From an uncultured archaeon (GTDB taxonomy: Archaea > Halobacteriota > Methanosarcinia > Methanosarcinales > Methanoperedenaceae): a stretch of DNA of 37,205 nt. Positions 3,145-3,834 of this stretch are shown one piece after another. The stretch covers positions 1-37,205 of the forward strand of contig CABMIB010000073.1 of assembly GCA_902386135.1 (NCBI GenBank). Direction: 5' to 3'. Under the pieces are notes generated by a model that worked only from the letters and a program-made list of their open reading frames with translations, did no database searches and had not been told where the DNA came from. Both the position numbers and the translations under genes were made by a program. Each line of letters begins with the position of its first letter. The first letter of the stretch is position 1.

Positions 3145-3197
3145 AATTCTTACCATAAGTTATAATAATCACCATGTCCATTTAGCCTGAACAGGGT

Positions 3198-3205
3198 AAG
3201 GAGGA
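3198..3205 (+). promoter_or_regulatory. Strong Shine-Dalgarno placing the start at a CTG codon
   Basis: AAGGAGGA is a near-perfect ribosome binding site. Its last base is 6 bases before CTG 3212 and 15 before the first TTG (3221). The in-frame stop at 3206-3208 excludes any start further upstream, so the spacing points to CTG. Confidence 0.7.
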
Positions 3206-3211
3206 TAATCT

Positions 3212-3499
3212 CTGAAAAAATTGTTGTGGTATCTGATTGCAGGAACACGCGGAGGGCAAACCCGGGCGTTAGTCCTGAAGCTCCTTATTGATAGGCCGTA
3301 CAATGCGAACCAATTAGCTGAGGTGCTGAATATGGATTATAAGACCATAAGGCATCACCTCGATGTCCTTGTCAAAAACGGAGTAATAACGATGGAGGGG
3401 GATAAATACGGTGCAATGTATTTTATTTCTAAGGCCATGGAGGCGAACATAGATGAATTCAACCAGATTTGGGAAAAAATTGATAAACAGGGTAAATAA
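3212..3499 (+). CDS. Winged-helix (ArsR-like) regulator, probable CTG start
   Basis: This is a protein of about 95 aa. It contains a winged helix: NANQLAEVLNMDYKTIRHHLDVLVKNGVI is a classic helix-turn-helix plus wing. Read from CTG 3212 it begins (M)KKLLWYLIAGTRGGQTRA, the form I would expect for this archaeal regulator family; starting at the TTG codons loses the conserved lysines and leaves a poor ribosome spacing. It sits 20 bases upstream of a small three-TM protein that has the same style of ribosome site and another unusual start. In archaea, winged-helix genes of this type are often paired with such a small membrane protein, which suggests a membrane-associated sensing pair. That role is inference. 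Confidence 0.8.
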   Translation: MKKLLWYLIAGTRGGQTRALVLKLLIDRPYNANQLAEVLNMDYKTIRHHLDVLVKNGVITMEGDKYGAMYFISKAMEANIDEFNQIWEKIDKQGK

Positions 3500-3506
3500 C
3501 ATAAGC

Positions 3507-3513
3507 AGGAGGT
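3507..3513 (+). promoter_or_regulatory. Shine-Dalgarno placing the start at an ATT codon
   Basis: AGGAGGT lies 6 bases before ATT 3520. No ATG, GTG or TTG occurs in frame until GTG 3586, which would be 72 bases away and would remove most of the first membrane helix. Confidence 0.65.
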
Positions 3514-3519
3514 AATCCT

Positions 3520-3834
3520 ATTCAGATAACAGAGATTTCTTATTATGTCACCGCAGGGAATATAGTTCTGCTGCTTGTACTTTTAGTGTCGTATATCGAG
3601 ATATACAGAAAAATTAAATCTAACTTCACATTAGGATTGATAATATTCACCCTCGCACTCCTGCTCCAGAGCTTTTCACGCGCTGTTCTGCTGCTTTTGA
3701 TCATTATAAACCCGCCTCCGGTGCAATATCCGCTGATAGTCAATCTATTGGGATACAATCCGGCATACGTGGTAATACCCGATGCGCTTGAATTCGTTGC
3801 TTTGAGCATATTGTTATATTTCACAAGAGAATAA
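3520..3834 (+). CDS. Small three-TM membrane protein, probable ATT start
   Basis: This protein of about 104 aa has three hydrophobic helices: one beginning near residue 14 (IVLLLVLLVSYIEIY), one in the middle (LIIFTLALLLQ) and one near the end (ALEFVALSILLYF). It resembles the small membrane proteins found beside winged-helix regulators in archaea (DUF7521-like); this is recognised by layout, not by a search. The frame is open from 3505. ATT 3520 follows an AGGAGGT site at good spacing and keeps the first helix whole, whereas GTG 3586 would cut it. The next gene starts 13 bases downstream. Function is unknown. Confidence 0.7.
   Translation: MQITEISYYVTAGNIVLLLVLLVSYIEIYRKIKSNFTLGLIIFTLALLLQSFSRAVLLLLIIINPPPVQYPLIVNLLGYNPAYVVIPDALEFVALSILLYFTRE

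Follow-up and report, generated by a model that had tools for sequence, protein, structure and literature searches.

Conserved near-cognate start codons in a regulator and membrane protein gene pair of the Methanoperedenaceae

The gene pair and its products

The window analyzed here, 37,205 nucleotides long, is contig C73 of a genome of Ca. Methanoperedens, a methane-eating archaeon with named relatives that include Ca. M. nitroreducens. Between positions 3160 and 3834, it holds two adjacent genes (Table 1) that are separated by a gap of 20 bases and flanked by a TatD-linked radical SAM gene upstream and by a gene encoding a rhomboid protease with an AN1 zinc finger downstream. The original prediction proposed that the two genes start with the nonstandard codons CTG 3212 and ATT 3520, each placed by a Shine-Dalgarno (SD) element, and on rereading the sequence, it proved correct in every coordinate, SD element, six-base spacing, and in-frame stop. 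Gene 2 is preceded by an in-frame TAA at 3502, and the TATA-like stretch in front of the pair is a possible candidate for its promoter. Near the start of the window, an IS605/TnpB-like open reading frame with a zinc-ribbon C terminus lies on the minus strand (365 to 1537), as judged from its translation alone.

Table 1. Features of the gene pair in the window and of further genes with near-cognate starts
Feature	Location	Strand	Basis or remark
TATA-like stretch TTATAATAAT	3160..3169	+	About 45 bases before CTG 3212; read in sequence
Gene 1 Shine-Dalgarno AAGGAGGA	3198..3205	+	Six bases before CTG 3212
In-frame TAA, rules out upstream gene 1 start	3206..3208	+	
Gene 1 start codon CTG	3212..3214	+	Ortholog alignment
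Gene 1, 95-aa winged helix-turn-helix regulator	3212..3499	+	PF01022 HTH_5
Gene 2 Shine-Dalgarno AGGAGGT	3507..3513	+	Six bases before ATT 3520
Gene 2 start codon ATT	3520..3522	+	Ortholog conservation
Gene 2, 104-aa predicted membrane protein	3520..3834	+	AlphaFold2 helices; no Pfam family
aIF1A gene	L341:13815-14126	-	PF01176, TIGR00523; orthologs L376-L405, L432-L450
CbiM cobalt transporter gene	L263:11952-12860	+	Orthologs L272-L295
Dolichyl-phosphate-type glycosyltransferase gene	L269:18917-19621	-	Orthologs L302-L331
Patatin-like phospholipase gene	L238:1209-2462	-	Further SD-led ATT/ATC candidate
Methyltransferase gene	L219:14991-15806	-	Further SD-led ATT/ATC candidate
Gene for a protein without Pfam family	L342:7294-7905	+	Further SD-led ATT/ATC candidate

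In the profile search, the gene 1 product matched the ArsR-type winged helix (PF01022) with 39.1 bits against a cutoff of 22, while its score of 30.6 bits against the ArsR/SmtB metalloregulator profile (NF033788) fell below the cutoff of 55. It resembles the ArsR-type regulators of PF01022 in being a small winged-helix DNA-binding protein but, unlike them, comes with a dedicated three-helix membrane protein, the product of gene 2. EarA, the archaeal archaellum activator, whose binding site in the arl promoter lies upstream of the BRE, is also a small winged-helix DNA-binding protein, and gene 1 is a candidate relative of it, as a lead only. The winged-helix domain of gene 1 recurs in the same genomes inside open frames of about 400 to 830 codons (L059, L060, L061, and L065), where it is apparently part of larger proteins.

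The search for gene 2 in Pfam returned no family. Its AlphaFold2 model (mean pLDDT of 81) consists of three long predicted helices, spanning residues 3 to 32, 35 to 63, and 81 to 103, and one short helix, and comparison of the model with PDB folds gave no match with an E value below 0.4. Of 53 archaeal loci outside the Methanoperedenaceae, 51 have a relative of gene 2 beside gene 1, usually with an ATG start. As far as sequence comparison goes, the regulator and its membrane partner constitute a widespread, conserved archaeal two-gene module, and it is a reasonable guess that the gene 2 product tethers the winged-helix regulator or senses for it.

Position and conservation of the start codons

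The in-frame TAA at 3206 to 3208 was verified and excludes an upstream start of gene 1, as originally argued; the first standard codon downstream of CTG 3212 is TTG 3221. At the codon aligned with CTG 3212, ATG, or in some cases GTG, is found in ANME-2, Argoarchaeum, Hydrothermarchaeum, Methanophagales, Woesearchaeota, and other archaea, and an M-K/R-x-x-L-W motif that follows the aligned start is common to these archaea and gene 1. Because distant orthologs carry ATG exactly there, the start position of gene 1 is confirmed and its non-AUG codon represents a trait of the lineage. Furthermore, upstream in-frame stops shut the reading frames of most orthologs within a few codons. As for gene 2, no standard start codon occurs within 20 codons downstream of ATT 3520. 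The next usable codon, GTG 3586, is codon 23 and falls within predicted helix 1, in agreement with the prediction that a start there would cut the first helix. The orthologs carry their ATGs not at the positions of TTG 3221 or GTG 3586 but at that of CTG 3212 and, in a genome outside the family (G034), at that of ATT 3520. This genome harbors two copies of gene 2, one with the ATG and one with an ATA behind an SD element, and its gene 1 retains CTG behind an SD element that is no more than a weak GAGG.

The pair is present in 30 of 31 genomes of the genus, the missing one being 77% complete, and with one genome of a sister genus the sample comprised 31 Methanoperedenaceae. Most of these genomes are metagenome assemblies, and agreement among 31 of them excludes errors. 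Gene 1 starts with CTG in 24 and with TTG in 7 genomes, and gene 2 starts with ATT in 30 and with ATC in 1; neither gene starts with ATG or GTG in any of them. An SD-like GGAG/AGGAG element is kept upstream of gene 1 in the Methanoperedenaceae orthologs, and the GGAGG of gene 2 is invariant (31/31). At eight conserved leucine positions of gene 1, where up to six leucine codons are used, CTG and TTG account for just 34% of codons, compared with 31/31 at the start; likewise, ATT accounts for just 18% of codons at seven conserved isoleucine positions of gene 2, compared with 30/31 at the start. Both start codons are far more tightly kept than synonymous codons and are therefore conserved as initiation codons and not for the residue. 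Beyond the family, a Methanosarcinaceae-like genome (G508) uses CTG and ATT, both SD led, with a gene 2 product that is 43% identical, and its sister genome G504 also has the CTG start. Collectively, the start positions, the conservation of the codons, and the absence of AUG can be read from the aligned sequences themselves, and the predicted use of non-AUG starts is confirmed and stronger than had been claimed, with CTG/TTG and ATT/ATC each conserved in all 31 orthologous pairs.

Near-cognate starts elsewhere in the lineage

To place the pair against its background, we scanned 927 kb of this genome (1,106 predicted genes) for genes with an SD match of at least 7 bases followed by CTG, ATT, ATC, or ATA and with no standard start in reach. 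SD-led genes mostly start with ATG, and clear near-cognate cases are few; the scan is noisy, since 37 SD-led open reading frames in G000 showed unrelated codons, and, given its simple gene model, the counts should not be taken as a census. In a second Methanoperedens genome (G014), a 400-kb sample revealed the same genes with the same near-cognate codons, and a 400-kb control from another family of the order (G060) yielded no clean case, its three candidates all having an ATG close by. Further SD-led genes of the lineage start with ATA, ATT, TTG, CTG, or ACG, and orthologs of the clear cases served as controls. In the case of the CbiM cobalt transporter, the orthologs start with ATG (11), TTG (5), ATA (4), ACG (2), CTG (1), or ATT (1), and GGAGG precedes 11 of the 13 non-ATG starts versus none of the 11 ATG starts (hypergeometric p about 3e-5). 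This contrast is direct evidence for these codons acting as starts and for compensation between SD strength and start codon; the switching of the CbiM start between species constitutes a natural experiment in such compensation. Among the genus genomes, the glycosyltransferase starts with ATA in 22 of 30, with ATG in 2, and with other codons in 6. The patatin-like protein starts with ATT in four of four genomes, and the methyltransferase starts with ATC, ATT, or ATA in four genomes, although less certainly, as one of them has an in-frame upstream start. The view that near-cognate starts are peculiar to the pair is thereby weakened: the pair does have them, but other SD-led genes, including the one described next, share them.

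The scan of G014 also brought up the gene for aIF1A, which belongs to the trio of factors responsible for start codon selection in archaea (PMC7531240), as a CTG-started gene with the start region GAGGTG-TTATA-CTG. The CTG was found in all 29 readable Methanoperedens genomes and in 19 of 19 additional genomes drawn from the remainder of family f1 and from families f2 to f5 of the order, i.e., in 48 of 48 readable genomes. Whereas the preceding codon and the following tail vary, the CTG is invariant. The gene was matched in 40 genomes outside the order as well. We considered aIF1 (SUI1) as a second factor gene of this kind and rejected it, as it starts with ATG in 26 of 26 genomes and showed no near-cognate start. 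The invariant ATG of aIF1 (L406-L431) follows GGAGG at an unusual spacing of about 14 bases, and an in-frame TAA immediately precedes it in many of the genomes (ATC CAA TAA ATG).

Could the weak codons have drifted in neutrally? In this lineage, a strong SD element might make the start codon nearly irrelevant, so that near-cognate codons accumulate and the pair is simply one example. The spread of CbiM starts over six codons, the distribution of GGAGG among them, and the prevalent ATA of the glycosyltransferase all fit such relaxation. However, drift should also reach ATG. On a tree of 32 genomes built from five genes (4.7 substitutions per site), parsimony counts six changes between ATG and non-ATG in CbiM, of 11 codon changes in total, and two in the glycosyltransferase, but none in gene 1, gene 2, or aIF1A. 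Because no ATG occurs in the 31 genomes while CbiM changed six times on the same tree, the weak starts of the pair appear to be upheld by selection, and we consider purely neutral drift unlikely. By these comparisons, the lineage generally tolerates near-cognate starts, but the pair actively retains them. Part of the pattern may come down to tolerance alone, given that several SD-led genes with near-cognate starts have no obvious regulatory roles. The downstream rhomboid neighbor starts with ATG in all orthologs read.

Alternatively, something other than weak initiation could preserve the start bases, for example an operator or an RNA element that overlaps the ribosome-binding site, and weak initiation would then be a by-product. 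The bases next to the gene 2 start are indeed well kept, with T at -1 and A at -6 in 31 of 31 genomes each. Nevertheless, the leader between the SD element and the codon varies, and the shared layout GGAGG-n-TAATC-n-CT seen by the original prediction did not hold, as TAATC is present in only 2 of 31 genomes for gene 1 and 9 of 31 for gene 2. A hidden RNA structure at the starts was rejected, since mRNA folding around either start gave nothing special (z scores of -0.14 and 0.65), and gene 1 tolerates the exchange of CTG for TTG. Taken together, we regard this explanation as distinctly improbable. The weakest alternative, that the true starts are TTG 3221 and GTG 3586, which in this genome are the standard codons lying closest, or that CTG and ATT are sequencing errors, has hardly any probability left and these starts were rejected, as 31 independent genomes are concordant, the SD spacing suits CTG 3212 and ATT 3520 alone, other archaea have ATG at the CTG position, and initiation at GTG 3586 would delete most of predicted helix 1.

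Initiation stringency as a possible means of control

Belinky et al. reported reversion to AUG between close genomes in 4.0% of cases for GUG starts and 1.7% for UUG starts and found CUG and AUU starts to be very rare (PMC5622118), and the long retention of CTG and ATT in the pair therefore needs an explanation. We favor, with a probability of roughly 0.6, the reading that the pair is a conserved two-gene module with SD-placed near-cognate starts, the output of which is limited by initiation stringency and from which AUG is kept out by purifying selection. In the Methanoperedenaceae and the Methanosarcinaceae-like genus, the pair would be translated from CUG or UUG and then from AUU or AUC, each placed by its SD element. 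The SD element would recruit the 30S subunit to each gene, and the imperfect pairing of CUG or AUU with the initiator tRNA would limit initiation, resulting in a low output that depends on the stringency set by aIF1, aIF1A, and aIF2. In Sulfolobus, aIF1 discriminates against noncanonical start codons, as stated in PMC6237735. The levels of regulator and partner would then be low and parallel, rising and falling together, and AUG would be selected against either for raising the output or for uncoupling it from stringency.

Two known systems bear a likeness to this arrangement. In bacteria, the AUU start of infC mediates the autoregulation of IF3 (Butler et al. 1987, as cited in PMC9845219), and eIF1 is autoregulated through its own poor start context (Ivanov et al. 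2010, as cited in PMC9845219). Like infC, the pair is SD led and its near-cognate starts are conserved throughout a broad group, and its output would be expected to depend on stringency; unlike infC, which encodes a factor, the pair encodes a regulator and a membrane protein, works with archaeal machinery (aIF1, aIF1A, and aIF2), and is known from sequence. The start of aIF1A is conserved across a wide group too and its product is an initiation factor, so that aIF1A of the order repeats the logic of infC with CUG in place of AUU. It also resembles eIF1 as a start-selection factor with a suboptimal start of its own, but eIF1 has an AUG in poor context with scanning, whereas aIF1A has a non-AUG codon placed by an SD element. 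As a start-selection factor, aIF1A may itself be controlled in the way proposed for the pair, in the manner of IF3 and the infC AUU. A wider idea, which we put forward tentatively and hold to be possible rather than probable, is that Methanosarcinales-type archaea run a start-codon-stringency regulon in which aIF1A limits itself through its invariant CUG, with effector genes, the pair among them, following the same signal; if true, archaea would thereby have an equivalent of the autoregulation known for infC and eIF1.

Bacteria, with the AUU of infC, and eukaryotes are known to use conserved non-AUG starts as a control device. Our literature search found no report of such starts in archaea, and we know of no archaeal report of such start-codon control. 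Standard gene callers accept only ATG, GTG, and TTG, and therefore gene 1, gene 2, aIF1A, and others are likely to be N-terminally misannotated or missed. A 2020 review of archaeal initiation names only AUG, GUG, and UUG (PMC7531240). The occurrence of weak starts throughout the family, and never of ATG, suggests that a feeble or adjustable translation of the pair is preserved by selection. If the codons act as we infer, archaea would regulate genes by start-codon stringency, and aIF1A would provide the direct test.
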